NCBI RefSeq assembly: GCF_007859765.1
Contig: NZ_SIHJ01000002.1
Coordinates: forward strand, 434,001 to 498,000
Direction: 5' to 3'
Length of the DNA stretch: 64,000 nucleotides
DNA from: Posidoniimonas corsicana
GTDB lineage: Bacteria; Planctomycetota; Planctomycetia; Pirellulales; Lacipirellulaceae
Under the pieces are notes generated by a model. That model was not told the origin of the DNA. It made no database searches and saw only the letters and a list, made by a program, of their open reading frames with translations. The translations under genes were made by a program, and so were the position numbers. Shown one piece after another: positions 13,262-48,997 of this stretch. Every line of letters starts with the position of its first letter. Within the stretch, counting starts at the first letter, position 1.

Positions 13262-13304
13262 TTTATCCGCGGCTCTTCTTCAGTTGGTCGCCCAACATAC
13301 TGGC

Positions 13305-15587
13305 TTAGCGACTCACCTCGATTCCGCCCGAATGCTCAGTTGGATTCCGAAAGCCGTAGCCGTAGGCATAGGAGTAGCTGTAGCTCGGCACCCCACTTAG
13401 AATAGAACCGGACACAGACGCGCCAGCCGATTCGAGCTGATCTAGGGCAAGTCTGATCTGGCGTCCACGGCTCTTCCCACGCAAAGTGCACATTGCCGTC
13501 ATGTCCGCAGAACGACAAAATGAGAGTGCCTCGCTCGCGCCTAGCACTGGTGGAGTATCGATCACGACAGTGCTGAACTCGTTTCTTAGTCGAGAGACCA
13601 ACGCAGCGATCCGCGCGGGCTGAGCAACTCGATGCGGGGAATCGTCACAATCACCCGCCCGCAGGACGTAGAGATTATCAGTCCCTTTCGCGGGCCTTAT
13701 AGCGTCCGAGATACTACATCTCGAGGAGAGAACCTCGTATAGACCTGGTCCCGGCTCTGCATCGACAAGGTCGTTAATACTCGGATCTCGCATGTCGCCA
13801 TCTACTAGCAGAGTCTTAGCACCGGTAGCATTGGCAAAACTCATGGCCAAAGCCACCGAAACGCTGGTCTTGCCTTCTCCAGAGACGGCGCTAGTAAGGG
13901 CGATAACCCTGTTCCGTTCCGAAGGGGCGCAAAAAGTTAGGCTCATGCGCAATGAGTCAATCGACTCGGCAAATGAGTACATCTCTTTCTGAATTCTCCT
14001 TGGAAGACGCCGAGGGTTGGCGGCAACTCGGCGAGAGGGAAACACCGAAATCTCGCCCAGAACCCGGAGCCTGGTGTCCTCGTACAGTTGCTCGGCGTCC
14101 GCGACGCGTCGAAGTGTAACCTCTCGAAGGAGGACGAGCCCAAAAGGCGCCAGCATGCCGACGCCACAGGCCAGGAAAATCTTCTTCCAAGGGGCGGACT
14201 CAACAGGTGTGGGAGACGCAACAATCGGCCCCATAACTCGCACCCGCGCGGGAGCATTCGTCTCCGTCTGCAAAGCTAGCTTGCGAGCCGCGATCATTTC
14301 GAAGACCTTCTCTTCCCTAGCAAGCTCCGCTTTTGCGAACTCTAATTCGGCGCCCTTGCCGCCGCTATCCTGCACACTCTTTAGCTCTGCCTGGAATCGA
14401 GTCTTTAGAGATCGCTGCTGAATCTGAAGCGCTGCCAACTCTTTGCGCTTCTCATCGACCACCGTCGAACCACCGAAGGGGCGTTCTGACCTCGTTGAGA
14501 GCAGTAGTTTTCGACGCAAGTTCGCCTTGTAACCCGCCAACTCATCCTTGAATCGCTGATACTGCTCGGCAAGCGCTTTGTAGTTGGCATTCTGCTCATA
14601 GCGTTTAGAAACCCGCTGGTAGTGTCGCATCTGATCCGCAATCCCAGTAAGGGCGCGTTCGCGCTGCACAACTTCTGGCGCCATATTCACCTCCAAGTCA
14701 ATCGCGCCTGCGCGGTCAGCGTGGGGTGCAATTGTAACCTCCGATTCCTCAAGCGACTGAATCTCGGCATGGAGTATCTCGATCCGCACCTCGACGTCAG
14801 TCAGTTGGCTATGGAGCGAAGCGAGTGGGCTGATCGCCTTATCCACGTCCATAAGCGTATTGTGCCCGAAGGGGTCTTTGCCGGTCACTTCTTTCGACAG
14901 CTCAACCACATACTGCTGCAAGCGATCGACCTCCAACTTCCGTCGAACACGCTCCTTCTCCAACAAGTCGACGACCCTTTGCACTTGCTTATACTGCTCA
15001 TCTGATTGCAACACGAAGTACTTCTTGATGACGGCGGCGACGATATCCTGCGACTCCTGCGCAGATGGTGAAGTGTAAGAAACGTCGTAAAGCTCCGAGC
15101 CGCCGATCTGTCTTATGGAGAGATTCTCCTTGATATGCTTGAGCTTGTCGGGCTTCGCTACAAGATGCTCCGCCTTGCCCACGCTCGCCTCTGACAAGAC
15201 TTCCCGGATCACAAGCGGGCTCCGCATAAGCTCAATCTGGGTGCGAACAAACGCAGAGTTGGCGCTGCCAACAGACGCCTTTTCGAAAGCAATGTAAGGC
15301 TGGGTGTCTTCGATGCGCACCAAACCAGTCGCGAGGTAATCGGGCTGGTACGTCCAGAGAAGCGCAGAGACTGCCGCCGCGGCCAAGACGAGCCCAGAAG
15401 GGACAACCAACTTCCAATGCCTGAGGAAGACCCAGACGAGGAACTTTGGCGTAAACTGCTGAGGCGCATTCTGGGGAGCGGACCAGTGGCGAGAGTTCGA
15501 TTGCGTCGCTATGGGCTGAGGTGATCCAGACTGGTCAACTCGCTGGAGCATAAAATTGGGCTCAGTAGGATGCTCGTGCTTGCTCAT
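13305..15587 (-). CDS. Wzz-domain BY-kinase (Wzc-like tyrosine autokinase)
   Basis: A 760-residue polysaccharide co-polymerase with a cytoplasmic bacterial tyrosine kinase. The N-terminal Wzz part has a transmembrane helix around residue 55, a long coiled-coil stalk (about 190-410) and a second membrane helix near 480. The kinase has Walker A TSAVSGEGKTS, Walker A' LLVDGDMRDPS and Walker B VVIDTPPVLGAS. The autophosphorylation tail is a Tyr/Ser cluster (SYSYSYAYGYG) near the C terminus. It would set chain length and couple synthesis to export by phosphorylation cycling. No cognate phosphatase or Wza gene is visible in the operon. Confidence 0.92.
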   Translation of the reverse strand: MSKHEHPTEPNFMLQRVDQSGSPQPIATQSNSRHWSAPQNAPQQFTPKFLVWVFLRHWKLVVPSGLVLAAAAVSALLWTYQPDYLATGLVRIEDTQPYIAFEKASVGSANSAFVRTQIELMRSPLVIREVLSEASVGKAEHLVAKPDKLKHIKENLSIRQIGGSELYDVSYTSPSAQESQDIVAAVIKKYFVLQSDEQYKQVQRVVDLLEKERVRRKLEVDRLQQYVVELSKEVTGKDPFGHNTLMDVDKAISPLASLHSQLTDVEVRIEILHAEIQSLEESEVTIAPHADRAGAIDLEVNMAPEVVQRERALTGIADQMRHYQRVSKRYEQNANYKALAEQYQRFKDELAGYKANLRRKLLLSTRSERPFGGSTVVDEKRKELAALQIQQRSLKTRFQAELKSVQDSGGKGAELEFAKAELAREEKVFEMIAARKLALQTETNAPARVRVMGPIVASPTPVESAPWKKIFLACGVGMLAPFGLVLLREVTLRRVADAEQLYEDTRLRVLGEISVFPSRRVAANPRRLPRRIQKEMYSFAESIDSLRMSLTFCAPSERNRVIALTSAVSGEGKTSVSVALAMSFANATGAKTLLVDGDMRDPSINDLVDAEPGPGLYEVLSSRCSISDAIRPAKGTDNLYVLRAGDCDDSPHRVAQPARIAALVSRLRNEFSTVVIDTPPVLGASEALSFCRSADMTAMCTLRGKSRGRQIRLALDQLESAGASVSGSILSGVPSYSYSYAYGYGFRNPTEHSGGIEVSR

Positions 15588-15632: not shown

Positions 15633-16547
15633 CTACCTTCCTTTACGAGAGGCTTTCACCACCGCAGCTGAAGTCATCACTTCATGAACCGGGAACAATC
15701 GATCCAGATAGGCTAGAACGGCCCAAAAAAGGAATCCGGCCAAGGGAATCATGACAAACCCTGCTAAGTCATGGCTGAACCGGTGAGCCACTTCGCCGGA
15801 TACCATCTCCTGCAGCAAGGCGGTCACTACGATCCGGAGTGAGTTTGCCAAAATGGCAACTGGCACCGCAGCAAGCACCACAGCCACCTTCTGCCACCAT
15901 GCCCAACCAGAAAACAAGACGAATGCGAAGGCCAGAGCGAAGATCCCCACCAAAATACGAAGCCCAGAGCAGGCCTCTGCGACCATGAGCGGTCGCTCGC
16001 CTATCCAGATCACGTTGCCCTCCGCAAGCGCCGGTATCCCAATCAATTGCAGCATCTCGGTGCTCAGCCCAGTCGCGATCCTCTGCAACGGAACGCTCAG
16101 CCATGTTTCCGCGGAATAGGGCAGAGGTATCATAAAGTATAAGAATGCAACGCTCGGCAAACACCACCTGAAGCATTGGCGCCCAAAACAAAGCAATACG
16201 ATTCCACCTAGCGCCAATGGAATCGACCAGGCGTCAACGGGGCCCAGGTAAAACTTGCCGGAGTAATAGCGCACCACGGCGACCAGCGAGAGCAGCACGA
16301 CCCCACCCCAACTTGGCGCCAGTCGCTCAACCTGCAGTTGCTCGCGCCGGGACCACAAGAAATACAACGCAATGGGCATTACGATGTAACCATGCGAGTA
16401 GTCTGGGTCTCGATTCCAGGCAGCTACAATCTCAGCCAGGCCAGGCCAGTAGGCCCAAACGAGGGCGGCGGCAAGCAAAGCGAAAAGCGTCGACGAAACT
16501 GCTAACGACAGACTAGAAACTCTGCTTTCAAGATCGGTGGGCTTCAT
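15633..16547 (-). CDS. Exosortase (Xrt family)
   Basis: A multispanning cysteine protease/transpeptidase that recognises C-terminal PEP-CTERM signals. I place the start at the ATG at 16547 (304 residues), because the frame continues upstream to 16802 only by overlapping the NusG gene with non-membrane sequence. The catalytic triad is visible: Cys in EACSGLRILVG, Arg in LANSLRIVV and His in AHRFSHDLAGF. About eight hydrophobic segments are seen. At least six probable substrates with PEP-CTERM tails are encoded in this same window. Which exosortase subfamily it belongs to cannot be decided by eye. Confidence 0.93.
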   Translation of the reverse strand: MKPTDLESRVSSLSLAVSSTLFALLAAALVWAYWPGLAEIVAAWNRDPDYSHGYIVMPIALYFLWSRREQLQVERLAPSWGGVVLLSLVAVVRYYSGKFYLGPVDAWSIPLALGGIVLLCFGRQCFRWCLPSVAFLYFMIPLPYSAETWLSVPLQRIATGLSTEMLQLIGIPALAEGNVIWIGERPLMVAEACSGLRILVGIFALAFAFVLFSGWAWWQKVAVVLAAVPVAILANSLRIVVTALLQEMVSGEVAHRFSHDLAGFVMIPLAGFLFWAVLAYLDRLFPVHEVMTSAAVVKASRKGR

Positions 16548-16789
16548 CGTGTCAGATATACGTACTGCGTCGGACTTTGGATGCATCCCGCGCGCACTCC
16601 GTTCTCTTCGATTGCGCGCTGCGTCGCAAACGTTCCGCGATGACAGCGGCGTTGCCCTCCTTCCCTGAGAGGCGAGTGGTTCAGTCGGGAATGCCCCAAC
16701 TGACTGCGCATCCTGCTCGTAACACGAACCTAACGCTTGTTGAACAGTCACAGAGCCGACGCATGCATGGCTCAGGACACACACGTGGC

Positions 16790-17479
16790 TCAGCGGCCAC
16801 ACCTCCTCAAGATTTCGACGGACGAACGAGCACTCCGATCGGGCGGGGCAACCTTCTCCAAGAGGCTCTCGTGAACCTCCAACGACGCGCCCTGTTTCAG
16901 GAAATTGACGGCCAGCAATAGCCTCGCCTGTTTCTTGCGACGGATCACGACACCCTCTAGCCCCTCGTGAATGCCGCTCTTCACCCTGACCCAGTCTCCT
17001 GGCTCAAGCTTCGCCTCTAGAGATAGCCTCGCACCGGCCGCGATAGCACTGGCTAGCCGCAGCAAGTCACTGCGCAAGCGATCTCCGTCGCCCACGGGGC
17101 AAGCGGTACTGATCCGATTTGTTGTAAGCGCGGCAGTCTTTAGATCAGGGTCCGCAAAGATAAAGAGATATCCCGAGAAAAGCGGCTCCTCGACGACACG
17201 GGACCGCCCGCGTGTAACGACCTCGCGATTGTGAACCGGCAGGTAGTGCGGCACTCCTAGACCGAAGAGGTCACGCGACAAGGCCTTCTCTTGACGGCTC
17301 CTCGTGTACACAAGCCACCACCGCGCACTCCCTTCGCCTGCAGGCTCGCTAGCCGACTCCGGCGGTGCTGAGGCTAGAAGGTCGTGCGGAAACAAGTAGG
17401 GCAATCGGGATGTCGACAAGCCAGCACCGGCGCAATCCGCCGCTGGAGCGACGTTCGGTAGGTCACCCAATTCAGCCAT
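16790..17479 (-). CDS. Specialised NusG paralogue (RfaH/LoaP/UpxY-like antiterminator)
   Basis: A 229-residue protein with a roughly 50-residue leader, then an NGN domain (WWLVYTRSRQEKALSRDL, then PLFSGYLFIFAD) and a C-terminal KOW domain (WVRVKSGIHEGLEGVVI). Paralogues of this kind bind RNA polymerase at the head of long surface-polysaccharide operons and suppress termination. Here it is the first gene of a run of 13 minus-strand genes spanning at least 16 kb, the expected place for an operon-specific factor. The housekeeping NusG is normally next to rplK/secE, which are absent here. Confidence 0.88.
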   Translation of the reverse strand: MAELGDLPNVAPAADCAGAGLSTSRLPYLFPHDLLASAPPESASEPAGEGSARWWLVYTRSRQEKALSRDLFGLGVPHYLPVHNREVVTRGRSRVVEEPLFSGYLFIFADPDLKTAALTTNRISTACPVGDGDRLRSDLLRLASAIAAGARLSLEAKLEPGDWVRVKSGIHEGLEGVVIRRKKQARLLLAVNFLKQGASLEVHESLLEKVAPPDRSARSSVEILRRCGR

Positions 17480-35881: not shown

Positions 35882-37162
35882 TTAGGTCCAATCTTGAGTC
35901 AGCTGGAATCGTGCGCGGCGGGGCGAGGCGGCCGCCAGGAGTAGCAGCAGCGTCGCCGCGGCGTGCTCGGGCACGCCAACACCGGCGAGCCCGTGAGCAA
36001 CGGCGGCGCCCATCGCCGGGTCGAGCCGGTTTAGCACCGCCCAGTCGGAAAGGTCGGTGAGGCCGTCGAAGTTGAGGTCGCCGCGGGAGTAGCGGTCCGC
36101 CACGCCGCCACCGCCCCGGACGAGCCAGTTGTCGAGGAACGCGGTCACGTCGTCGGTGGCCGCGGGACCGGCGCCGTCTCCCGCCACTACGCCATCCTGA
36201 TTGACATCGCCCAGCACGCCGTTGGGAGGCGGCACCTCCAGCCCCCGCACCGTGCCGTCGAGCCCCGCTTCAAATGGGTCGACGCCGAGGTGCCACAGCG
36301 CCGTGGCGGCAACATCGCGCAGCGTGCCCTGGCCGAGGCTTACGCCGTCGGCGACGCTGGGCCCACTCACAATGAACGGGACCTCCCAGTTCGGCAGGCC
36401 TTGGTCGGCGGTGTGCGCGAACGATCCGGGCGCGGCGCCGTGGTCGGCGGTGACGATCACTAACCAATCTTCCTCTCCGTTGACCACGCCCGGGCGCGCG
36501 CTGACCGTGGCCATGACATCGCCGATCAGTCCGTCAACCACCTCGATTGCAGCAAGGTGCGCCTCGCTGCCCCACGAGTGGCTGTGCCCCGCGGAGTCGA
36601 CCTGATCGAAGTGCAGAAAGACGGCATCTGGATCGCCGTTTTGGATCAGCGCAACCGCGTCGTTGCGGACGGCGATGTCCTGGTGATCAATAGGACCCGA
36701 GTCGTAGCCGAACTCTAGGTCCGCGTACGCGTCCGGCGAGATAAAGGTGTTGATCGGCGTCCAGTTGACCAGCGAGGCTGTGTAGAGGCTGGCGTCAGCC
36801 TGCTTCGCGTGCTGGAAGAAGTGCGGGTAGGATTCGAAGTCCGACCCCGCGAAGCTGTTGTCGGAGACGCCGTGGTGCGTGGCTGAAACACCGGTGAGGA
36901 TTGTGGACCAGTTCACACCGCTGGCGCCGTAGGGCGCTGGCGGGTTGTCAACCAATGCCCCTTCGTTGAGGAAGTCGTACCGCACGCCGCCCAGCGACGC
37001 TAACGCGTCCATCGCGGGCGTGTCCGCCTGGGTGATGTACTGCCCGCCCGCGCCGTCGACTCCGATCACCAGCACCTTGTTCGTCGCCCCCAAGGAGCAC
37101 GCGGCGCCAGCCAAGACCACCAGCGAGGCGTAAATCGCAGATCGCATCCAGGTAACTTTCAT
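35882..37162 (-). CDS. Secreted alkaline-phosphatase-superfamily phosphodiesterase with dockerin and degenerate PEP-CTERM
   Basis: A 426-residue exported hydrolase. ATG 37162 has AAGAGG seven bases upstream and begins a signal peptide ending near SLGA. The NPP/phosphopentomutase-type metal sites are visible: VLVIGVDGAGG, the nucleophile region SGVNWSTILTGVSATHHGV, FDQVDSAGHSHSW and VTADHGAAPG. Then come dockerin-like repeats (GDVNQDGVVAGD, RGDLNFDGLTDLSDW). The tail has VPEH instead of PEP, an Ala/Leu helix and PRRAR, plus an extra 9 residues. It probably cleaves phosphodiesters or phosphonate esters. It lies 13 bases downstream of nothing conserved and reads towards the metallophosphoesterase gene. 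Confidence 0.87.
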   Translation of the reverse strand: MKVTWMRSAIYASLVVLAGAACSLGATNKVLVIGVDGAGGQYITQADTPAMDALASLGGVRYDFLNEGALVDNPPAPYGASGVNWSTILTGVSATHHGVSDNSFAGSDFESYPHFFQHAKQADASLYTASLVNWTPINTFISPDAYADLEFGYDSGPIDHQDIAVRNDAVALIQNGDPDAVFLHFDQVDSAGHSHSWGSEAHLAAIEVVDGLIGDVMATVSARPGVVNGEEDWLVIVTADHGAAPGSFAHTADQGLPNWEVPFIVSGPSVADGVSLGQGTLRDVAATALWHLGVDPFEAGLDGTVRGLEVPPPNGVLGDVNQDGVVAGDGAGPAATDDVTAFLDNWLVRGGGGVADRYSRGDLNFDGLTDLSDWAVLNRLDPAMGAAVAHGLAGVGVPEHAAATLLLLLAAASPRRARFQLTQDWT

Positions 37163-37199
37163 CAAGCCTCTTCACACTGCGTCGGGCCGTCGACGGGGT

Positions 37200-38324
37200 C
37201 TAACGGCGATCGGCGCCGCCCGTGGTGATGACCTGGCCGGCCCGGCTCCCCATGTCGCTCCACACCTGCGGGTCGGTGCTCTCGACAACGGCCTGGACGT
37301 GACCGTCCACAAACACCATCTGCACAACGCCGCTGTGTTCGCTCCCGAAGCTCAGCTGCAGAGACTGGCACTCGGTCGAGGCGGCTGTGCGGCAGATGCG
37401 TTGGTTGTCCGCCGAACTTGACTGCAGGTTCATGCCAACCCCAGTGGAGCCGAGGAACTCAGAGGGGTCGCTAAAGTCGTTTGCACTGCCGCTGATCGTG
37501 GTGTCGATGTCGTCGCTGCCGCCGTACCAGTGATCTTTCCGGTCGCCCTCGCGGGCTTCCTTCGCCTGCCCCAACTGCTCAACGGTGGTGAAGTCGGACA
37601 CCGCCTCGCCGGCCAGCGCCGTCTTGGAGGTGCCGTCGATGACCTTCCGTAGCGCGATCGAGCCGCCCTTGCGGTCCTCCTGGTGGTGCACGCCGACCAG
37701 CACGCCATCGGCCCCTTCGTAGAGCGGCGGCGCATCGGGAGAGCGTTTGCCGCGGATCCAGTAGGTCGGGTACTGCGACTGGATCAGGCCAGACGCGACG
37801 CCGATGTACGAACCCGGCACGCGGTTGTTGACAACCCAGCTAACCGCCGAGAGGTCGTACAGGTGCTCGGGAAGACCCATCGATGGACAGCGGTAGACCG
37901 GGATGACGGTCTCGCAAAGAACCATGTTCTGGTACTTCTCACCGAGCGACGCGACATCTTCGTAGGCGCCGGGGTGGGCCCACTGGAAGTTGCCGTTGTC
38001 GTCCTCGCCGATCTGGAGGTAGCTGAACATCGACCCCTCCTCGAGGTACGGCAGGATGAACGCGCTCCACGCGCTCCCCTCGCCCAGGTAGGTGCCGGGC
38101 GGAAGAACGCCACGGCTGGACTCATAGTTCAGGCAGGCGAGGCCGATCTGCTTCAGGTTGTTGCTGCACTGCGACCGGCGAGCGGCCTCCCGCGCGGCCT
38201 GCACCGCCGGGAGCAGCAGCGCGATCAGCACTCCAATAATCGCGATTACCACCAACAACTCGACCAGCGTGAACGCGGCCCGTTCTCTGTGCGTCGCTCC
38301 CCGCTTGGCGTTTGACAGCTGCAT
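37200..38324 (-). CDS. DUF1559 type II pseudopilin-like protein
   Basis: A 374-residue planctomycete-type protein with a prepilin methylation site, [22 protein letters not shown], here residues about 17-38, cleaved by a prepilin peptidase before the Phe. I choose ATG 38324 because an AAGGAG ribosome-binding site lies upstream; the frame runs further to 38390 without support. The DUF1559 body contains [17 protein letters not shown] and the C-terminal H-x9-DG motif ([12 protein letters not shown]). Such proteins exist in many copies per planctomycete genome; the substrate or assembly is unknown. Confidence 0.93.
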
Positions 38325-38481
38325 CTCTCTGCTCCTTGATTTCCAACGCCCGTTGCTGGGCGTTGTTGCGAGGTTTCCCGTGTGGAACAAGTCCCTGCGG
38401 GGGTGGCGTGACTCGCGTATTGTCCGCCGCGCCCACTACCGCCGTGAGGACTTGCTGCGCATCCCTGTTGACGCCGCTGAG

Positions 38482-41400
38482 CTAGCCCCGGCGACGGCAT
38501 TGCCCAGCCGTAACCAGCGCCAGCGTCAGCAACCCGGTGGTGGCCGGCTCCGGCGCTGTGCCGCCGCTGATCAGCCGCAGAGCGGCCACGCCGGCGGCGG
38601 GGTTGGCGTTGTTCAAGATCGCCCAGTCTTCCAAGTCGACCACGCCGTTGTAGTTGAAGTCGCCCAGAGCACGGGTCTCCAGGTCGCCTACCAGGCGGCC
38701 CGAGACAACGCCGTCGAACGGGTCAACCGACTCTAGCCGTTTCTCGGACAGCCAGTTCTCGGCGAACAGGCTGGCGTCGGAGGTGGTCACCAGGCCGTCG
38801 CCATCCAGGTCGCCGTCAACCGCGGGCGCGAACGCCTGCGCGTATCCGTTGTCGCGCGGCAGGTGCCACTCACCCCAGTCATTGAGCGAGTTGTCGCCGC
38901 CGCCGGCGACGTTGTCGTTGTCGTTCAGCCCCATGACGAACATCTCCAGGTCGTCCACGACGCCACGGAAGTAGGCGTCCTCGCCGGGGGTGCTGCTGGA
39001 GAAGTTGCGGTCGAGGGTCTCGGGGTCGGTGCGGGCGCCGACGAACAGCGGGCTGTCGTCGAGCGCGGCGATGTTGGTGAACAGGTCGCCCTCGCCGATG
39101 TTCACGACCGTCTCGATCTCGTAGTTGCCGAAGCCGACCGCCTCCGCGACTCCGTTCACGTAGAAGATCGACCCGTTGCCCGGCCCGGCCGGCCGCACGA
39201 CCGCCAGGTGGTACCACTCGTTGTTCACGGGGGCGATGTCGGTCTCGTAGTCGGCGGGCGTCACCATCGGCTCGCCGATCTCCAGCACATCGTCTTCGGT
39301 GCCTTCAACGCCGTCGTCGCCCGGGAGCACTGTGATCTCGATGTCGAACTCACTCGCGTACCGCATCGCGAACTTTCCGTCCTCGTTGATCAGCACGCCG
39401 TGCTGCTGGCTGTCCATGACAATGTGCTGCTCGCCGGCGGCCACATCGGTCGGCTTGACCCACAACTCGAAGCCGCGGTCGTTGATGCGGAAGTAGTTGA
39501 GGGTGCCGCCCGGGTTGACCAGCGACGCCAACGAAGAGGGCGACTGCTCGGGGTAGTTGAGCGCCTCTCCAAAGCCGGTCCGAAGGTACTGGCGGTCGAA
39601 CGCCGTCTGGTTCAGCGCGATGCCCACGCCGCCGTTCCCGTCGGGGCGGTCGGTGGTGTCGGCGTACCGGGGGTAGGAGTTGAAGCGGGCCTTGGCGACC
39701 AGGTCGATCAGTTGGTTCGCGTTCAGCTCTCCTGCGGCGTCGTACGTAACCACGTTGCCCTGGGAATCGGTATTGCTCATTGCTTGACCAACAACAGCGC
39801 CGGGGTCGTCGTCGCCAAAGCCGTAGTCCCGGTCGACAAACGGCGCCGGCCCGGCCGGTTGGGCGTGGCTGACGCTCACCAACGTGAGCGGCGCGAGCAG
39901 TATCATGCACACCGCAACGCCGACGGAAGCCCTCCGCCGAACGGCGCTGGCGGCGAGCCCCAGCAGGGCCAGCAGCCCAGCCCTGGGCTCGGGCGCCGCG
40001 GCGGCTGCCTCGACTCCAGCGCCAAGGCCGTAGTTGCTCCGCCACAGCGCGTAGTCGGCGGCGTCGACCACACCGGCGCTCCCGCCGGACTCATCGCCGT
40101 TGCCGCCCAGGTCCGCGTCGGTGCCCAGGTTGTCCCGCCAGACGGTGTAGTCGGCGGCGTCCACGACTCCATTACCGTTGAAGTCGCCGGGCAGTGAGAC
40201 CGTCAGGTAGCTGACCACCGCGGGGGCAAAGACATCCTCCGAGGACTGATCAAGCACCTGCCCGAATTGATCCTCCTGCACGAACGAGTAGGTCAGCAGC
40301 AGGTCCTCGATCGAACCTGGGCCACCGTACAGCCGCCCTACCGAGAGCGCCTCGCCAGGCCCGATCACGCTCTCGCCGTTGAGAAAAGCCTCAAAGACAA
40401 TCTCGGAGGTGGCCACGATGGTGTCCCACGCGTCGCCAACCCCCGGCCCGCCGGCGTCCACGGCGCGGGCGTCAAGGTTGGTGGCAGCCCAGTCTGCCGG
40501 GTCCAGGCTGCCGCTTTCGCTGGTCACCGAGTAGCCGGTCAGCACCACAGGCTCGTCGCTCACCGAGACAAGCATCGCCTCGCCGGTCGTTGCGTTCACG
40601 CGCAGCTCGAGCGTGGCAGGGGGCGGCGGCGGGATGAAGCGGGTGATCGTACCAACGTGCCGCTCCCGGAAGGGCGTCACTGGGGGGATGTAGTTGTCGG
40701 TATTGACCACCCAGCCCTCAGGGCCGTCCTGAGAGTAGACGGCTTCGCCGGAGTCGGGATCTTCGTCGATCGGCGGCCCCAGCGTGACACTCTCAAAGTC
40801 TTCGAAGAAGAGCGAGCCTGTATTGCCGGCGACGCCGACGTTGTCGATGGCCCACCACCAGTCATTGGTGGCGTTGAACAGGTTGAAGCCAAGCTGCATC
40901 GTGGTCGCCGCCCCCGCGTCCGGCAGGCTGATGCTGATCATCTCGTTGGGCGCATCGTCCTTAAAGTCCGGACTGGTCTGATCGGAGCTCCAACGGAACA
41001 CCTCGGTCGGCACGCCGTCGTAGAACACCTGCAGGCTGGCGCCCTGAGTGTCTTCGTCACGCCAGCTCGACGCGAACGACAAGCTGAGCGATGTCGAGTC
41101 CACGCCGGAAATATTTATCGCCGGGCTGCGGAGCTGGCTGTTGAAGGTGGTCGTGCCGCCGGGACCGCCGATGTCGTCCCACTCGTCCGGGTCGGCGATC
41201 GCCACGACGCCGGTCCCCAGCGTGAACAGCTGGCGTTCCTGGCCGCCGGCGACCTCGGACCACCACTCCCGATCGGCGAAGGACCACTCCTCCCACTCGG
41301 TGACGCCAACCCCGTCGCTGAGGCGTTGCGCCTGGGCGGTCGGCGCTGACGACCCGACGGCCGCCAGCACGATCAACGCCGCGAGCAGCCTGCCCGCACC

Positions 41401-42864
41401 GCGGCGGCGGACGAGCACTCCGGCGACCGCCAGTGACAGCACCGCGGCGGCGCCCGGCTCCGGGGCCGCGGTCCCGGAAAGCATCTGCACGAATGCGCCG
41501 GCGCCGAGGGCGGCGTCGAACTCGCGGCGGAACGTGACGAAGTCCGTGGCGTTCAGCCTGCCGTCATCGTTGAGGTCGCCCTTCAGGTAGGCCTGGGCGG
41601 TGGTCAGGTCCGAAAGGTCGGCCTGATCGGTGATCGAAGTAAACTCGGTCCAGTCGCCGGAGTCGACCTGACCGTCGAAATTCAGATCAAGGAACGCGAA
41701 CGCCTGGCCGCCATTGCCGACGAACTCGACCAGCCCAGCTATCTGGTCATCGTTGCCCTCTAGGAGGTAAATGAAGCTGATATCGCTGTTCTCTTCGAAG
41801 TACCGCAGCCAGACGTCGGCGCCAAAACTGATGCTGCCGCCGTTGGCGAGGGTGGCGTTGTCCAGGTGGACCTCGCTGAGGTCGTTGATCTGCCCGCCGA
41901 CCTGCGTCGCCTGGATCCAGTCCGGGTCGGTAGCCGACAGGAACGTCGCTTGCCCCTCGTCGAACGCGCCCTCGTCCGAGGTCAGCGAGTAGCCCCGCAG
42001 CTGCACTGCCGAGCCGGTGTTGTTGACGATCGTTACCTCGCCGGTGTCGCGGTCCAGCACCGCCCGCAACACGCCGTCGGCGCCCGGGTTGTCGCCTGTG
42101 TAGACACGCACGTTGTCAACTGCCCACCACCAGTCGTTGTTGCCCTGCAGGCGGAACTCGAACTGCACGCCGGACGCGCCGGCGGGGACCGACTGCAGCG
42201 TGTAGGTCAGGCTCTCGTCGAAAGCCTCGTTCTTGAAGTTCACGTCGGTCGGGACGGAGGTCCAGGTGTCCAGGATCTCGACGTCGCCGGTGTTGTAGCG
42301 GGCGGTGAGTGTTGCGGTCTGCTGGTCTTCGTCGAACCACGACGAGCTGAAGTTGAGCCGCACCGGCTCACTGACGCCGCCGATCGACACCGACGGGGTC
42401 ACCAAGGTTGAGTCAAGAACGCCGTTCTCGGGAAGCAAGTTGTCTTCGATACCTTGATCCGGGTTGCCGAAGTCGTCCCACTCGTCGGGATCGGCGACCG
42501 CAATCGTTCCCACCCCGCTGATAAAGCCGGAGCGTCCCTGGTCGCCGGCGGTTTCAATCCACCACTGCTTGTCGACAAACCGCCAGCCCTCGAACTCCAG
42601 CACGCCGCTCTCGGTGTCGCCTACGGAGGTGGTCAGGTTGACCTCGGTCCACCCAACGGGCCCGCTCGGGCCAACCTCCTGCCACGCCTCGCGGCTGCGT
42701 AGCTCAGACTCGAAGGTCACGGTTGGTTGGAGCGTGACGCCCTCGAAGTCCTCCGACAAGAGATCGACTGCGCCGGCATGGCTGCAGGCCAACCCGGCCG
42801 CCGCGCAGGCCGCCGATCGCAGAAGATTCTTTACGCGCTGCGGAAACATGGGGGCGATGTTCAT
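38482..42864 (-). CDS. Three PEP-CTERM proteins fused in one frame (LamG, dockerin, lamin-tail-like domains)
   Basis: A 1460-residue frame from ATG 42864 (a longer start at 42933 is unsupported). Unit A (to about 41395): signal peptide, beta-sandwich with NDWWWAVDNV, lamin-tail-like segment, dockerins, then APEP (41455-41463), helix and VRRR. Unit B (about 41395-39930) opens with a signal-like LLAALIVLAAVGSS..AQAQ, has NDWWWAIDNV, dockerins and a second APEP (39985-39993) with VRRR. Unit C opens with an internal ATG at 39906 (MILLAPLTLVSVSHAQ), carries a LamG domain, dockerins and a terminal APEP helix RRRG. Internal sorting signals followed by new signal peptides, all without stops, are very unusual. 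Unit B lacks the first part of its sandwich domain, which hints at fusion by deletion. Confidence 0.85.
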   Translation of the reverse strand: MNIAPMFPQRVKNLLRSAACAAAGLACSHAGAVDLLSEDFEGVTLQPTVTFESELRSREAWQEVGPSGPVGWTEVNLTTSVGDTESGVLEFEGWRFVDKQWWIETAGDQGRSGFISGVGTIAVADPDEWDDFGNPDQGIEDNLLPENGVLDSTLVTPSVSIGGVSEPVRLNFSSSWFDEDQQTATLTARYNTGDVEILDTWTSVPTDVNFKNEAFDESLTYTLQSVPAGASGVQFEFRLQGNNDWWWAVDNVRVYTGDNPGADGVLRAVLDRDTGEVTIVNNTGSAVQLRGYSLTSDEGAFDEGQATFLSATDPDWIQATQVGGQINDLSEVHLDNATLANGGSISFGADVWLRYFEENSDISFIYLLEGNDDQIAGLVEFVGNGGQAFAFLDLNFDGQVDSGDWTEFTSITDQADLSDLTTAQAYLKGDLNDDGRLNATDFVTFRREFDAALGAGAFVQMLSGTAAPEPGAAAVLSLAVAGVLVRRRGAGRLLAALIVLAAVGSSAPTAQAQRLSDGVGVTEWEEWSFADREWWSEVAGGQERQLFTLGTGVVAIADPDEWDDIGGPGGTTTFNSQLRSPAINISGVDSTSLSLSFASSWRDEDTQGASLQVFYDGVPTEVFRWSSDQTSPDFKDDAPNEMISISLPDAGAATTMQLGFNLFNATNDWWWAIDNVGVAGNTGSLFFEDFESVTLGPPIDEDPDSGEAVYSQDGPEGWVVNTDNYIPPVTPFRERHVGTITRFIPPPPPATLELRVNATTGEAMLVSVSDEPVVLTGYSVTSESGSLDPADWAATNLDARAVDAGGPGVGDAWDTIVATSEIVFEAFLNGESVIGPGEALSVGRLYGGPGSIEDLLLTYSFVQEDQFGQVLDQSSEDVFAPAVVSYLTVSLPGDFNGNGVVDAADYTVWRDNLGTDADLGGNGDESGGSAGVVDAADYALWRSNYGLGAGVEAAAAAPEPRAGLLALLGLAASAVRRRASVGVAVCMILLAPLTLVSVSHAQPAGPAPFVDRDYGFGDDDPGAVVGQAMSNTDSQGNVVTYDAAGELNANQLIDLVAKARFNSYPRYADTTDRPDGNGGVGIALNQTAFDRQYLRTGFGEALNYPEQSPSSLASLVNPGGTLNYFRINDRGFELWVKPTDVAAGEQHIVMDSQQHGVLINEDGKFAMRYASEFDIEITVLPGDDGVEGTEDDVLEIGEPMVTPADYETDIAPVNNEWYHLAVVRPAGPGNGSIFYVNGVAEAVGFGNYEIETVVNIGEGDLFTNIAALDDSPLFVGARTDPETLDRNFSSSTPGEDAYFRGVVDDLEMFVMGLNDNDNVAGGGDNSLNDWGEWHLPRDNGYAQAFAPAVDGDLDGDGLVTTSDASLFAENWLSEKRLESVDPFDGVVSGRLVGDLETRALGDFNYNGVVDLEDWAILNNANPAAGVAALRLISGGTAPEPATTGLLTLALVTAGQCRRRG

Positions 42865-42994
42865 GATGGCTGTGATGGAGCGTCTGGTGGGATGAATAGC
42901 GGTCAAGCAACAGGCTCGCGATACGCCGTGCATCGTGCGGTGCCTACGACACGGTGGTCCGTCTCACACGTGACTTGCTTGGGGAATCTAAACA

Positions 42995-43028
42995 GGGCCC
43001 CGCCGCCAACCGGCTGGCGGCGGGGCCC
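42995..43028 (-). terminator. Strong hairpin terminator after the 43-44.7 kb PEP-CTERM gene
   Basis: A perfect 14-bp stem (GGGCCCCGCCGCCA with its complement) around a 6-base loop, 19 bases downstream of the stop codon. On the minus strand it is followed by TGTTTA, only a modest U-run. Confidence 0.75.
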
Positions 43029-43047: not shown

Positions 43048-44700
43048 CTAAGCCATGCGGCGGGTGAACACGCCCGCAGCAGTCAGGGCAGCGACAATCA
43101 GAGCAGCCGACGCGGGCTCGGGGATGACGCCGGAGCGGACCTGGACGTTGTCGATGGCCCACCACCAGTCGTCGTTGCCGATGTAGCTGAACTCGAATTC
43201 AACGCTCGAGTAGCCGGTCGTATCGACAACCAGCAGCACGTCCTCGTTGACAGCACTGGCGTGGTAGTCGTCCGACGAGCTGTCGCTGACCCAGCGGAGC
43301 AGCTCCAGCGGAGTGCCGTCCAGGTAGGCCGTAAGGGCAACCTCCTGGTTGTCCTCTGGTCGCCAGCTGGAGTCAAAGTCGAGCGAGATGAAGGTCTCGC
43401 CGGACACGTCGATCGCCGGGGTTCGCATCACAGTGGTCAGGTCGCCGGAGTCGCCGGGGTCGCCGATGTCGTCCCACTCGTCGCCGTCGGCGACGGCTAC
43501 CGCGCCGGAGGCCTTGGTGAACTCGCTGCGGGTCGAGCCGCCGACCTCAGCCCAGAAGTCCTTATCCGTGACGCTCCACTGCTCCCACTCTAGGACGCCG
43601 TAGGCGTCGTCGCCGCCGCCGGCGCCGGGTGTGCCCGTGTTGTCGGTGCTCCAGCCCGCGGGGAAGCTGTGCGAGTACGCGTTCTCCACGCCCTGGGTGG
43701 CGTAATCAACGCCCAGGATGCTGGTGACGCCCGTCGACTCGGTCGTGACGTTGGCGCCGGGCGCAAGCCGCTCGTTGACGCTGTCGCCAAGCGCGACGCC
43801 CTCAAAGTCTTCAAACAACACCTGACCCTGACCGCCGGTGAGGTCGTTGACCTCAACATTGTCGATCGCCCACCACCAGTCATTGGCGCCGTTGGCCAGC
43901 TTGAAGGTCAGCGTGGCGCTGGTGACGCCCGCCGGGGCGACGAATGCCGGGCCCGACCCGTCGGCCGGCAGGTTCTCGTCCGGGGCGTCGGCCTTGAAGC
44001 CGCCGCTGGCGCTGTCGGAGTTCCAGTCGATCACCGGCCCGGTGACGCCGTTGTCGTAGGTGACAAACACCTCGACGGCCTGGTTATTGAGGTTGACGTA
44101 GGTGTCGCCCAACGCGGCGTCGTCGAATGCCTCCGGGCGCCAGCTCGAGTCGAATCCAACGCCGTGCACGGCGCCGGCGCTGACCGGGAATGAAGCGGTC
44201 GTCAGCGCAGTGCTGTAGTAGCCGCCGTTCACTGCGTCGTTCTGGCTGCCGAGGTCGAAATACTCGTCCGGGTCGGCCACGGCGACCGTGCCCGAGGCGT
44301 TGCTCGTGGCGCCGAACATTGAGCGATCCTGGTCGCCGGCCGCGGTCGACCAGAAGTCAAGATTGGCAAAATTCCAGCCGTCCCACTCGTCCACGCCGTA
44401 GTCGGCCAGGCCGGTGCCGGCCACGCCGGTCGTGACGGTCGGGGCGCCCAGGTAGGTGCTGACCGCGTTGTCACGCGTCCAGCCTGCGGGGCCGACGCTG
44501 CTCCACACGCCGGGGATCGACGAGGTGCCGGGCTCCGTCGCGACGTTCTCGGAGATCGACGTGCCGATCCGCTCATTGGTGCTCTCCCCAAGGGTCACGC
44601 CCTCAAAATCTTCGAAGAACAGCACCTTACCATACTGGGCGCCTGCGCTGCCGGCTAGCAACAGGCCGCCCAACAAGCCGCCCGCGACAATTCTCAACAT
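43048..44700 (-). CDS. PEP-CTERM protein with two tandem beta-sandwich domains
   Basis: A 550-residue exported protein; ATG 44700 has GGGGGAG upstream and begins a signal peptide (RIVAGGLLGGLLLAGSAGA). It holds two copies of one domain, each opening with LFFEDFEGV(T/A)LG, containing a DE-x-x-DLG/DEWDDIG motif and closing with (N/D)DWWWAIDNV. The same domain recurs in the large gene immediately downstream. The fold is probably a concanavalin/MAM-like jelly roll, judged from the final aromatic motif. The C terminus is IPEP, a hydrophobic helix and FTRRMA. It is not a dockerin protein. Likely an exosortase substrate on the cell surface. Confidence 0.88.
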   Translation of the reverse strand: MLRIVAGGLLGGLLLAGSAGAQYGKVLFFEDFEGVTLGESTNERIGTSISENVATEPGTSSIPGVWSSVGPAGWTRDNAVSTYLGAPTVTTGVAGTGLADYGVDEWDGWNFANLDFWSTAAGDQDRSMFGATSNASGTVAVADPDEYFDLGSQNDAVNGGYYSTALTTASFPVSAGAVHGVGFDSSWRPEAFDDAALGDTYVNLNNQAVEVFVTYDNGVTGPVIDWNSDSASGGFKADAPDENLPADGSGPAFVAPAGVTSATLTFKLANGANDWWWAIDNVEVNDLTGGQGQVLFEDFEGVALGDSVNERLAPGANVTTESTGVTSILGVDYATQGVENAYSHSFPAGWSTDNTGTPGAGGGDDAYGVLEWEQWSVTDKDFWAEVGGSTRSEFTKASGAVAVADGDEWDDIGDPGDSGDLTTVMRTPAIDVSGETFISLDFDSSWRPEDNQEVALTAYLDGTPLELLRWVSDSSSDDYHASAVNEDVLLVVDTTGYSSVEFEFSYIGNDDWWWAIDNVQVRSGVIPEPASAALIVAALTAAGVFTRRMA

Positions 44701-45073
44701 GACTCGTCTCCCCCAAAGATGCGGAACCAACGGGAATCAAGAAATCGCGGCGCGACCAACACGCCGCTCGACTGAGCTGAACGAGCCGAGATCTTCAGCG
44801 GCAAGTGTGAAGAATTGGTGTTGGTCAATGCACGAAATCAGTTAATCGCGGGTCGCGGCGCCCCGCGCAACCCATTCGCTTGACCCCCTGCGCACGGACG
44901 CCGATGTTTTGACCTCACGCGGCGCGGCGCCCACTTCGGACCGAGCGCCTCCGCTAACTCGAGCGGTCGAGCTTTCGTCAAGCCTTTTGCGCACCGAACC
45001 TTTTCTTCACGCGGCGATCGTGTTTAAGATTCGTGCTTTCGTGGCAGCAACGGCTCCATCAGGGGATTCACGA
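44701..45073. other. Divergent intergenic region upstream of the phosphonate degradation genes
   Basis: 373 bases between the PEP-CTERM gene (minus) and the PhnZ-like gene (plus). Should contain the phosphonate operon promoter. A plus-strand frame continues from 44909 into the PhnZ-like gene, but residues before the GTG at 45074 do not look like the family. I found no clear Pho box or regulator palindrome. Confidence 0.4.
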
Positions 45074-45649
45074 GTGAACGACTGCGCGACCGCCGACCAG
45101 GTGCGGCGACTATTCACCAAACGGGGCGACTCGCAGTACGGCGGCGAGGCGGTGTCGCAGCTCGAGCACGGACTGCAGGCCGCGGCCATGGCCGAGCAAG
45201 AGCAGGCATCGGCCCAGCTGATCGCCGCGGCCCTGCTGCACGACGTCGGCCACCTGCTCCACGTGCTGCCGGACGACGCGCCGGACCGTGGCGTCGACGA
45301 CATGCACGAAGAACTTGGCGCCGACTGGCTGGCGTCGCGGTTTCCACCAGCGGTGCTCGAGCCGGTGCGGATGCACGTGGCCGCCAAGCGTTACCTGTGC
45401 GCCGCCGAACCGGCCTACCGCCAGTCCCTCAGCCCGCCGTCGGAGCTAAGCCTGCAGTTGCAGGGCGGCCCGATGAGCGACAAAGAGTGCGACTCCTTCC
45501 GGGCGAGCCCCTTCTTCGACGACGCGATCCGCCTGCGGCGGTGGGACGACCTCGCTAAGGACCCCGAGATGCAGACGCCGCCCCTCGAGCACTTCCTCGA
45601 GTACGTCCGCGACGCGATGGCGCCCTCCCCCAGCACGACCACCCTGTGA
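45074..45649 (+). CDS. phnZ: PhnZ-like HD-domain diiron oxygenase for amino-hydroxyphosphonate
   Basis: A 191-residue HD-fold protein. The GTG at 45074, with AGGGG nine bases upstream, gives the family length. PhnZ oxidatively cleaves the C-P bond of 2-amino-1-hydroxyethylphosphonate to glycine and phosphate. Every key residue of PhnZ has a counterpart at nearly constant offset: Tyr22 and Glu25 (Y24/E27), His32 (H34), His56-Asp57 (H58/D59), His78 (H80), His101 (H104), Lys105 (K108) and Asp158 (D161). The Tyr and Glu distinguish it from phosphatase HD proteins. It is 9 bases before the FAD oxidoreductase, in one operon with phnX. The PhnY hydroxylase that normally makes its substrate is not in the window. 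Confidence 0.86.
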   Translation: MNDCATADQVRRLFTKRGDSQYGGEAVSQLEHGLQAAAMAEQEQASAQLIAAALLHDVGHLLHVLPDDAPDRGVDDMHEELGADWLASRFPPAVLEPVRMHVAAKRYLCAAEPAYRQSLSPPSELSLQLQGGPMSDKECDSFRASPFFDDAIRLRRWDDLAKDPEMQTPPLEHFLEYVRDAMAPSPSTTTL

Positions 45650-45658
45650 GCCTATGAC

Positions 45659-46816
45659 ATGACCGACCGCGTAGCGGTAATAGGAGGCGGCATCGTTGGA
45701 GTCGCACACGCCTGGCAGCAGGCTAAGCGCGGCGCCAACGTAACGCTTTTTGAACGCGGCCGCCTGGCCGCGGGGGCGTCCGTGCGAAACTTCGGCATGG
45801 TGTGGCCTGTCGGCCAACCCAATGGGCCCCTCCACGCAACCGCCCTACGCAGCCGCCAGCTGTGGACCGAGTTCCTCTCGGACGCCAAGCTGTGGTGCGA
45901 CCCCTGCGGGTCGCTCCACGTCGCCACGCGTCAGGATGAGCTCGACGTGCTCGGCGAGTTCGCCCACAACAGCCGGGAGCTCGGCTACGAGTGCCAACTG
46001 ATCAGCGGCGAGCAGGCCGCCGAGAAGAGCCCGGCCTTGCGGGCCGACGAGCTTAAGGGCGCGCTCTGGAGCCCGACCGAGATGACCGTCGACCCCCGCC
46101 AGGTGATCCAGCGGGCGCCGCTCTGGCTGCACGAGAAGTACGGAGTCGACCTGCAGTACGGCGTCCGCGTTCGTGAGGTGAGCCCCACACGGCTGGTTGA
46201 CGCACACGACCGGGCGTGGTCGTTCGACCGGATTATCGTCGCCAGCGGCGTGGAGATCGCCGAGCTGTTTCCCGAGGTGCATCGCGAAGCGGGTCTTGGC
46301 GCGTGCAAGCTGCAGATGATGCGGACGATCCCTCAGCCCAATGGCTGGCGCCTGGGCGCGCTGATCGCCAGCGGGCTCACGCTGCGGCACTACGCCACGT
46401 TCCGGGTCTGCCGCACCCTGGACGCGTTGAAGAAGCGCGTCGCTCGCGAGACCCCCGAGCTGGACGAGTACGGCGTGCACGTTATGGCCTCGCAGAACGG
46501 CGACGGAAACGTGGTGCTGGGCGACTCGCACGAGTACGGCGACGCCATCACGCCGTTCGACAAGGAGCGGATCGACGAGCTCATGCTGCGCGAGCTGCGC
46601 CGGTTCCTGCACCTGCCCGAGTGGACCATCGCCCAGCGCTGGCACGGCGTGTACGCTACACTGCCGTCCGAGGTGCAGTTTGTCCACCAGCCAATGCCGG
46701 GCGTCACGATCGTGATCGCCACCGGCGGCGCCGGCATGACGATGTCCTTCGGCCTGGCCGAGAAGCTTGCCGCCGCGGGCGAGGCGCCCGTCGACGCCCG
46801 CCGCTTGGCCGTTTAG
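45659..46816 (+). CDS. FAD-dependent amino-phosphonate-type oxidoreductase (TIGR03364-like)
   Basis: A 385-residue flavoprotein of the D-amino acid/glycine oxidase fold. The FAD-binding loop is VAVIGGGIVGVAHAW at the N terminus, followed by GASVRNFGMVWPVGQP, typical for the TIGR03364 group that is found next to phosphonatase genes. The C-terminal GGAGMTMSFGLAEKL closes the FAD site. Flavoenzymes of this context have been reported to oxidise 2-aminoethylphosphonate or its N-methyl form to phosphonoacetaldehyde, which would feed directly into PhnX downstream. That assignment is inference from family and neighbours. Confidence 0.88.
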   Translation: MTDRVAVIGGGIVGVAHAWQQAKRGANVTLFERGRLAAGASVRNFGMVWPVGQPNGPLHATALRSRQLWTEFLSDAKLWCDPCGSLHVATRQDELDVLGEFAHNSRELGYECQLISGEQAAEKSPALRADELKGALWSPTEMTVDPRQVIQRAPLWLHEKYGVDLQYGVRVREVSPTRLVDAHDRAWSFDRIIVASGVEIAELFPEVHREAGLGACKLQMMRTIPQPNGWRLGALIASGLTLRHYATFRVCRTLDALKKRVARETPELDEYGVHVMASQNGDGNVVLGDSHEYGDAITPFDKERIDELMLRELRRFLHLPEWTIAQRWHGVYATLPSEVQFVHQPMPGVTIVIATGGAGMTMSFGLAEKLAAAGEAPVDARRLAV

Positions 46817-46841
46817 TCCCCCACCACGCACAGCACGCAGA

Positions 46842-47663
46842 ATGCCGTTCCGCCCCCCCAACCAACTCTCCGCCGTCATCTTCGACTGGGCCGGCGTCAC
46901 CGTCGACTTCGGCAGCCGCGCGCCGGTGCTCGCCATGCTGGCCGCGTTCGAGGGCCAGGGCGTCGCGGTGAGCGAGCAAGAGGTCCGCGCCCACATGGGC
47001 AAGGCGAAACGCGAACACCTGAACGCGGTGCTGGCCATGCCACGGGTGAAGCAGGCCTGGACAGACAAGCATGGCGCCGAGTCAACCGATGCCGACCTCG
47101 ACCGGATCTACGAGTCCTTCCTCGGGCTCCAGGAGGAGTGCATCACGTCGCACTCCGACCTGATTGAGGGCTGCGTCGACTCGGTAGAACACTGCCGCTC
47201 GCTCGGCATGCGGATCGGCTCGAGCACCGGCTACACCCAGCAGCTCCTCAAGCCGGTCGCCGCCAAAGCAGCCGAGCTCGGCTACCGGCCCGACGCCATC
47301 GTGTGCGCCGGGGATGTATCTCCCGGGCGGCCCGAACCATGGCTATGCTTCGAGAACGCCCGCCAGCTGGGCGTATTCCCAATGTCCGGGGTGCTGAAGG
47401 TAGACGACACGCCGGCCGGAGTGACCGCCGGCCGGAACGCCGGCGCGTGGGCGGTTGGCGTGGTGACCAGCGGCAACGAGGTTGGTCTGGGCCGCAATCA
47501 ATGGGACGCGCTCAGCCCTGACGAGCAGCGTCAACGGCACGGCGCCGCGTCGCAACGCCTGCTCGACGCCGGCGCTCACCTGCTGATCGACTCGATCGCG
47601 GAACTGCCGCGCGTCGTGCAAGAGCTCAACCAGCGTCTGGCGAGCGGCCAAACGCCGGGCTAG
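46842..47663 (+). CDS. phnX: Phosphonoacetaldehyde hydrolase (phosphonatase)
   Basis: A 273-residue HAD-superfamily enzyme that splits phosphonoacetaldehyde into acetaldehyde and phosphate through a Schiff base. ATG 46842 gives the standard length. The nucleophile is Asp15 in VIFDWAGVTVD, and the lysine that forms the imine is Lys56 in HMGKAKREH; with His59 the spacing equals that of the characterised Bacillus enzyme (D12, K53, H56) plus three. The third and fourth HAD motifs are GSSTGY and KVDDTPAGVTAG. It is the last gene of the plus-strand operon and converges on the class III PLP enzyme, 32 bases away. Confidence 0.94.
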   Translation: MPFRPPNQLSAVIFDWAGVTVDFGSRAPVLAMLAAFEGQGVAVSEQEVRAHMGKAKREHLNAVLAMPRVKQAWTDKHGAESTDADLDRIYESFLGLQEECITSHSDLIEGCVDSVEHCRSLGMRIGSSTGYTQQLLKPVAAKAAELGYRPDAIVCAGDVSPGRPEPWLCFENARQLGVFPMSGVLKVDDTPAGVTAGRNAGAWAVGVVTSGNEVGLGRNQWDALSPDEQRQRHGAASQRLLDAGAHLLIDSIAELPRVVQELNQRLASGQTPG

Positions 47664-47695
47664 TTGCTGGTCGTGGCGCCGTCGGAACGCTGCCG

Positions 47696-48997
47696 CTAGC
47701 CAGCCGTCACTGCATCTCTGCCTGCCGCCTCCGCGAGCGCGTCGGTCAGCCGTTCCAGCATCTGGTCGCAGACCGCCTCGTCGTGCGCCAAAGATAGGTA
47801 CAGCTTGGTGCCCATCGGATTGAGGAACACGCCGCGTTTGAACAGCGCGAGCATGAAGCGTCGGGCCAGCGGCTTGTCTTGGTGCCGGCACGATCGGTAG
47901 TCCCTCGGCCGGGCGGTGGTGAACGCGAACTGCGCCAGCGGCCCATCTCCGACGACCTGGGCTTTGACGCCGACGTCACGCAGCGCCTGCTGCATCCCGT
48001 CGCGAAGGTAGCGCCCCAGCCCGTGCAGGCGCTCGTAGACGCCGTCCTCGGCGAGTGTGTCCAGCGTGGCTAACGCGGCGGTGGAGGAGATCGGATTGCC
48101 CCCCAGCGTCGACGCGGTCCAGACGTACGAATCGACGCCCAGGCGGTCCTCGGCCGCGAGCTCCATCACCTCGGCCGTCCCGCCGAACACGCCGATGGGG
48201 AAGCCCCCGCCAAGCGCTTTGCCGTAGGCGACCAGGTCCGGGGTGACGCCGTAGTACTCCTGGGCGCCACCGTAGGCCAGCCGGAATCCGGTCACGACCT
48301 CATCGAAGATCAGCAGCACACCGCACTCGCGCGTCACCTCGCGGAGCCCGGCCAGGAAGCCCTCCTCGGGGGCCAGGCACCGCTGCAGCGGCTCGATGAT
48401 CACACCCGCCAACCGGCTGGCGTTCTCCCGGATGATCCGGCTGGTGGTCGCGAGGTCGTTGAACGGGGCGACCAGCACGTCGTGTTCGATACCAGCGGGC
48501 AGCCCGTCGCACGAGGGGTCGGCCGCGGGGAACTCGCGGTCGGCGTCCGGGAACAGGCTGGTGACACCGACATCGTGAGCGCCATGATAGGCGCCCTCGA
48601 ACCGCACCACCGCCGGCCGCCCCGTAGCGGCCCGGGCCAGCCGCAGGCAGTACATGGTCGCCTCGGTGCCCGAGGCGCAGAAGCGGACCTGGTCCGCCGC
48701 CGGGGAGAGCGCGATCAGCCGCTCGGCCAGTTCGAGCGACGCGTCCGTGATGCTCGCAAAGTTGGTCCCCTGAGTGAGCCGCCGCGCAACCGGCCCGCAG
48801 ACCCGGGGGTCGGAGTGCCCGACCAGGACCGACCCCCAGCCCATCGAGAAGTCGAGCATCTCGTCGCCTGCGGCAGTCCACAGCCGGCACCCCTCGCCCC
48901 GCGCGACAACGGTGGTCAACTCTGCGGGAAGGTTAAACTCGCCGTTGCTGCCGGCCGGGAAGGCCGCGCGGGCGCGTGAGCTGCTCGGGTGATTCAC
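47696..48997 (-). CDS. Class III PLP-dependent aminotransferase or lyase of the phosphonate locus
   Basis: A 433-residue fold-type I PLP enzyme starting at GTG 48997. It resembles glutamate-1-semialdehyde aminomutase: VRFCASGTEATMYCLRLARA for phosphate binding, FEGAYHGAHD, IFDEVVTGFR with the ring-nitrogen Asp, and the PLP lysine in VAYGKALGGGFPIG. A true heme-pathway HemL is possible, but the position next to phnX and phnZ suggests a phosphonate role. In other bacteria a class III enzyme (PbfA) acts as an ammonia-lyase on (R)-1-hydroxy-2-aminoethylphosphonate. No class V PhnW transaminase is present in the window. Confidence 0.87.
   Translation of the reverse strand: MNHPSSSRARAAFPAGSNGEFNLPAELTTVVARGEGCRLWTAAGDEMLDFSMGWGSVLVGHSDPRVCGPVARRLTQGTNFASITDASLELAERLIALSPAADQVRFCASGTEATMYCLRLARAATGRPAVVRFEGAYHGAHDVGVTSLFPDADREFPAADPSCDGLPAGIEHDVLVAPFNDLATTSRIIRENASRLAGVIIEPLQRCLAPEEGFLAGLREVTRECGVLLIFDEVVTGFRLAYGGAQEYYGVTPDLVAYGKALGGGFPIGVFGGTAEVMELAAEDRLGVDSYVWTASTLGGNPISSTAALATLDTLAEDGVYERLHGLGRYLRDGMQQALRDVGVKAQVVGDGPLAQFAFTTARPRDYRSCRHQDKPLARRFMLALFKRGVFLNPMGTKLYLSLAHDEAVCDQMLERLTDALAEAAGRDAVTAG

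Follow-up and report, generated by a model that had tools for sequence, protein, structure and literature searches.

The window analyzed here, a 64,000-nucleotide stretch of the Posidoniimonas corsicana genome, carries on its minus strand an open reading frame of 1460 codons (38482..42864) in which three protein units, A, B, and C, follow one another with no internal stop before the terminal TAG at 38484-38482. Residues are numbered from the ATG at 42864 adopted in an earlier note on this DNA; the first ATG of the frame lies at 42933. That note had described three units in one frame, each closed by a PEP-CTERM-type sorting signal, and the open frame and its residues bear this out. The signals occupy residues 468-488 (41463-41401), 958-978 (39993-39931), and 1438-1460 (38553-38485), in agreement with the positions first proposed (about 41400-41463, about 39930-39993, and the C terminus). 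Units A and B end in APEP-helix-RRR, and unit C ends in the terminal PEP-CTERM signal, which reaches 23.2 bits with PF07589 (cut-off, 20.7) and 22.5 bits with TIGR02595 (cut-off, 16).

Unit A opens with a signal peptide (residues 1-32; 42769..42864) that has an Arg/Lys n-region, a hydrophobic core, and an AGA|V site, as judged by eye without a signal-peptide program. Its mature part (residues 33-467; 41464..42768) comprises a choice-of-anchor-J-like sandwich, an LTD-like region, and dockerin-like Ca-binding repeats; the match to NF038128 falls below its cut-off, that to PF00404 lies above its own, and the LTD match is weak. Junction 1 (residues 468-512; 41329..41463) consists of the PEP motif, a helix, RRR, a second helix, and AQA|, and it leads into the mature part of unit B (residues 513-957; 39994..41328), which has a permuted sandwich, an LTD-like region, and dockerin-like repeats. 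Junction 2 (residues 958-1001; 39862..39993) is built in the same way, ends in SHA|, and is followed by the mature part of unit C (residues 1002-1437; 38554..39861), with a beta-rich domain, taken from a low-confidence model, and dockerin-like repeats. Sequence searches of the PDB returned EF-hand and dockerin matches only, and the structure models are of low confidence throughout (mean pLDDT of 50 for unit A with junction 1 and of 48 for unit C).

The sandwich domain of unit B had been thought to lack its first half. That half is indeed absent from the N terminus of the unit, but a copy of it is found after the second half, at about residues 685-717 (LFFEDFESVTLGPP...), so the order in this part of the unit (window about 40650-41328) is second half, then first half. 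To judge from this order, the domain appears to have undergone permutation, not mere truncation. The permuted arrangement is common to the window frame and its counterparts in genomes G001 and G022 (Aeoliella).

Upstream of the three-unit frame and conserved next to it is a gene for another PEP-CTERM protein with two sandwich domains (43048..44730, minus strand). A strong GC-rich hairpin followed by TGTTT lies between the two genes (42995-43028) and is likely a terminator. The downstream neighbor, a DUF1559/N-methylation protein (37200..38390, minus strand; PF07596, 145.9 bits), belongs to the conserved synteny. Beyond it, the phosphodiesterase at 35882-37165 has the tail VPEH-helix-PRRAR, a variant of the PEP signal, and the frame of its counterpart in genome G012 (L057, 14100-18173) runs far past the PEP signal without a stop or a signal peptide. 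A phosphonate-degradation cluster at 44909-48997, also conserved beside the three-unit gene in relatives, encodes an HD oxygenase (TIGR03276), an FAD oxidoreductase (TIGR03364), a phosphonatase (TIGR01422), and a glutamate-semialdehyde-aminomutase-like aminotransferase. The nearby phosphonatase and phosphonate oxygenase genes, together with those for the phosphodiesterase and a purple-acid-phosphatase-like protein, suggest a role for the surface proteins in organophosphorus scavenging, although this is a weak inference.

A candidate processing enzyme is encoded in the same window. The stop-to-stop frame at 15636..17003 on the minus strand matches the exosortase model TIGR02602 at 155.9 bits (cut-off, 105.55) and PF09721 with an E value of 7e-62, one of three PF09721 loci in the genome. 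With its C-terminal signal, its N-terminal signal peptide, and an exosortase in the genome, the whole frame thus qualifies as a PEP-CTERM protein. PEP-CTERM signals have been described as extreme C-terminal, with fewer than 10 residues following in 87% of cases and a median of three, and long-tailed cases were suspected to be nonfunctional (Haft 2006, PMC1569441). The two internal copies are not at the extreme C terminus, as 972 and 482 residues come after them, yet both have the PEP motif, hydrophobic helix, and Arg cluster. In three other frames (L055, L020, and L060), an internal junction is the best PF07589 stretch; the copy in L055, an orthologue of the window frame, lies at residues 518-540 of a protein scoring 33.8.

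The earlier note had claimed that each internal PEP signal passes without a stop into a signal-peptide-like segment, and this is what we find: both run into a hydrophobic helix and an [AS]xA site, with predicted cleavage at AQA|Q (512/513) and SHA|Q (1001/1002). A junction profile built from 28 rows matches junction 1 over profile positions 1-48 (E value, 6e-11) and junction 2 with an E value of 3.6e-9, both stop-free. For comparison, we assembled 60 nonredundant junctions from 40 frames. An [ASVTCL]xA site is present in 60/60 and a strict AxA in 43/60, with Gln at +1 in 22/60, and every junction meets the substrate pattern of signal peptidase I, in which a hydrophobic helix with a positive n-region precedes small residues at -3 and -1. 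Since the site picker favored small residues at these positions, the fair comparison is that of strict [AVS]xA within the expected range, found in 51/60 junctions versus a frequency of 0.33 at random positions. A second helix of junction quality within 47 amino acids occurs at 11.6% of random body positions.

Could the units instead be translated separately from internal start codons, as tandem genes that incidentally lost their stops? A few junctions with long linkers leave room for this, as about six retain Met or Val codons that resemble starts and are accompanied by ribosome-site-like sequence, among them L020, L022, L065, and L070 with ATG or GTG; these may be recent fusions or dual-use starts, and some long-linker members may also be translated separately. 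The bulk of the junctions argues otherwise. Three-quarters of the set (45/60) are tight, with no more than 15 residues from the first Arg to the second helix, and an ATG is present in 10 of these and absent from the other 35; junction 2 has no ATG, GTG, or TTG between its PEP motif and second helix. Ribosome-site-plus-start combinations occur at start-like codons in junctions at a rate of 0.119, close to the background of 0.092. If the bases of the 45 tight junctions were shuffled, the probability that none would contain a stop is ~10^-17, a figure that ignores relatedness, as the sequences are not independent. Moreover, one Arg cluster serves both signals: that of the upstream unit is the positive n-region of the downstream unit, with no start codon, implying that translation runs through. 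With most junctions lacking a usable start, the codon evidence indicates that only fusion translation can yield the downstream units. We regard separate translation as very unlikely here, and as a general rule internal starts are ruled out by the start-codon and ribosome-site rates, the question staying open for the few long-linker members.

The arrangement is shared with relatives. The three-unit frame is open in at least 10 planctomycetes of several genera, down to about 42-43% identity in whole-protein alignment, with both junctions in frame and no stop at either in the aligned orthologues. It forms one open frame of 1422-1570 amino acids in seven genomes (G001, G002, G005, G012, G016, G020, and G022). 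Aeoliella straminimaris ICT_H6.2 and the chromosome of Lacipirellula limnantheis I41 are among the named orthologue records; G012 and G016 are single-contig genomes, and the orthologue in G003 spans contig ends. Gene order around the locus is kept in most orthologues, with varying completeness: downstream lie genes for DUF1559, phosphodiesterase, and phosphatase proteins, and upstream those for the HD oxygenase, the FAD oxidoreductase, the phosphonatase, and the aminotransferase. The 10 fused orthologues all have P468, E469, P470, and A512 (position -1 relative to the predicted cut), and conservation of A510 (position -3) is 90% or higher. A tree built from unit A places these orthologues in the same order as one built from unit C, a few inner branches being weak, so the units are inherited together. 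Single-protein orthologues without an internal PEP motif, named beforehand as the refuting result, were not found among the orthologues examined.

At the syntenic locus of two relatives, the units are found in separate genes. G019 has a free-standing gene for unit A, whose TAA overlaps the GTG that begins a B-C fusion, and that GTG is preceded seven bases upstream by AAGGAG. In G014, a unit-A-like gene and a unit-C-like gene are separate, and both encode a signal peptide. The two separate unit-A genes group in a single clade next to the fused orthologues, with more distant three-unit paralogues outside, a placement that fits an older fused state later split, although the root is uncertain. Separate genes at the same locus also fit units that act as independent proteins, and they show the units to be exchangeable with stand-alone secreted proteins.

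The build is not confined to one locus. From the junction-profile search and inspection of genome stretches, we count about 15 frames of this kind in the P. corsicana genome. The profile yields 15 full-length stop-free junctions in 13 frames, most other matches stopping at the Arg cluster or meeting a stop codon, and the inspected stretches add two further frames (L019 and L022). These stretches hold 12 frames with internal PEP signals, each then followed by a signal-peptide-like helix, and in a protein search of the genome several long frames span a first-unit C-terminal module, a PEP signal, and a second-unit module in frame. One frame of this build (L019, 8325-11384, on G000:C1) encodes a pectinesterase that ends in a PEP signal and is linked by a signal-peptide junction to a GH28 enzyme; pectinesterase and a polygalacturonase-type GH28 enzyme would fit as partners in one pathway. 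An 888-amino-acid frame (G000:C1:1945397-1947148), whose three PEP signals are spaced at about 240-280 codons, is apparently a three-unit polyprotein of small units.

This recurrence bears on the origin of the frame, for which the earlier note had left the choice between a natural polyprotein and a recent fusion or assembly error. Stop-free orthologues in several genera and the roughly 15 frames in this genome support the former. For the loss of stops through assembly or base-call error we found no supporting evidence. Many assemblies made independently have the frame open, among them G012, G016, and the L. limnantheis chromosome, as do the paralogues of the same build; we consider such an error wholly implausible. 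A recent deletion fusion is ruled out, as is assembly error, by the same frame being open in orthologues and paralogues.

Units also keep their place across paralogous polyproteins: first units of three have a first unit of three as best hit in 14/18 cases and third units a third unit in 15/17, and second units resemble second units at other loci. At locus L068, a stand-alone PEP-CTERM gene (12465-13424) shares 83% identity across 198 residues with internal unit 2 of the polyprotein next to it (8038-12291); this marks a recent copy out of or into the polyprotein, a sign of recent traffic. In Aeoliella straminimaris, one search gave at least 11 full-length stop-free junction matches. Within the Lacipirellulaceae, the profile matches 17 of 44 genomes in 10 of 15 genera (E ≤ 1e-8), one of these matches (G047) having stops and not being a true junction. 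Outside the family, junctions are rare: a phylum-wide search of 392 genomes gave 1 other genome with a junction, but it scored only 17 candidates per genome and therefore undercounts rare cases there. A search centered on genome G135 revealed more, in about four genomes of its class, with tight junctions of the same type between other units, for instance after a sulfatase-like protein in G135. These cases in another class of the phylum are independent. Among distant relatives with the sandwich domain, 20 genomes, mostly of Verrucomicrobiota, yielded no complete junction free of stops.

A single frame, paired signals, their conservation, and the presence of an exosortase are thus established. 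We consider it probable that the locus encodes a natural polyprotein of three surface proteins cut by signal peptidase and exosortase, cleavage being inferred without protein data. Units A-B-C are made as one translated chain, a step shown by sequence logic, and unit A would be exported by Sec. In the inferred topology, the first PEP helix would act as a stop-transfer segment and leave its Arg cluster in the cytoplasm, where the cluster would provide the positive n-region for the next helix; this helix would re-enter as a signal peptide and start export of unit B, and the cycle would be repeated for unit C. Signal peptidase would cut after each AxA-type site, freeing the following unit, and exosortase would act at each PEP motif, handing the unit to a surface acceptor. 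The predicted products are three separate surface proteins and two two-helix remnants of about 45 residues, the likely gain being partner proteins in equal amounts. Cutting by exosortase, already suggested in the earlier note, remains an inference with no cleavage data, and signal peptidase, left implicit there, is an equally needed actor. Against this explanation stands the terminal position of published PEP-CTERM signals, and the proposal presupposes that an exosortase would accept a site followed by a helical hairpin.

Two other readings of the junctions dispense with internal exosortase cuts. Signal peptidase alone may cut them, with units A and B remaining anchored by a two-helix tail, as the universal AxA-type sites and the terminal position of known exosortase signals would allow; but the internal PEP is as invariant across the 10 orthologues as that at the C terminus, which makes little sense if it goes unread, and we give this possibility little weight. 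Alternatively, the frame may specify an uncut multidomain membrane protein, its PEP-Arg-helix segments being plain transmembrane hairpins that keep three extracytoplasmic domains on a single chain and only its last PEP being processed. Two consecutive helices are predicted at both junctions, albeit in low-confidence models, and positive-inside topology fits. A hairpin, however, has no need of PEP motifs or AxA-type sites, and both are retained, with the helices and Arg cluster, while the rest of the junction drifts rapidly; relatives, too, encode units at this locus as individual secreted PEP-CTERM proteins. We therefore view an uncut protein as improbable and retain the doubly cleaved polyprotein as our preferred reading.

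Viruses commonly make polyproteins that are cut into separate products, whereas bacteria rarely do. A bacterial fused precursor is the Bradyrhizobium FbcH cytochrome b-c1 precursor, which is separated at an internal signal sequence; it differs from the window polyprotein in having no sorting signal, one junction, and respiratory proteins as its products. In viral glycoprotein polyproteins, a stop-transfer helix is followed by a signal helix, and signal peptidase separates the ectodomains. These are viral and processed in the eukaryotic endoplasmic reticulum without exosortase, and we claim analogy only, not homology. One example with an internal signal peptide is PMC5113920.

The PEP-CTERM/exosortase system (EpsH; PF07589, TIGR02595, and TIGR02602) shares with the window frame the PEP motif, transmembrane helix, Arg cluster, signal peptide, and exosortase, but here only the last of the three signals is terminal, the other two lying inside the chain and leading directly into a further signal peptide. 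LPXTG/sortase, MYXO-CTERM/myxosortase (PMC11980579), GlyGly-CTERM/rhombosortase (PMC3237569), and PGF-CTERM/archaeosortase likewise pair a tripartite C-terminal sorting tag with a membrane enzyme that cuts it, yet all of these are described as terminal tags of single proteins, with other motifs and enzymes. The earlier note knew of no described PEP-CTERM polyprotein, and we found no paper combining PEP-CTERM or exosortase with polyprotein, or PEP-CTERM with internal signal peptide, in the literature searched, which excluded most subscription papers. The enzyme system is known, and its internal, signal-peptide-coupled form appears to be undescribed.

The conserved and recurrent internal form suggests that a PEP-CTERM signal can work midchain; if so, exosortase would not need a free C terminus, and the internal form offers a natural substrate for testing what exosortase can cleave and whether its tag must be C-terminal. 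Such frames would appear in annotation as single giant proteins. For the Lacipirellulaceae, we lean toward a polyprotein strategy in which exosortase and signal peptidase cut internal PEP/signal-peptide fusions to give equimolar sets of surface proteins. A whole family with about 15 members in a single genome would amount to a new fixed-ratio route to such proteins.
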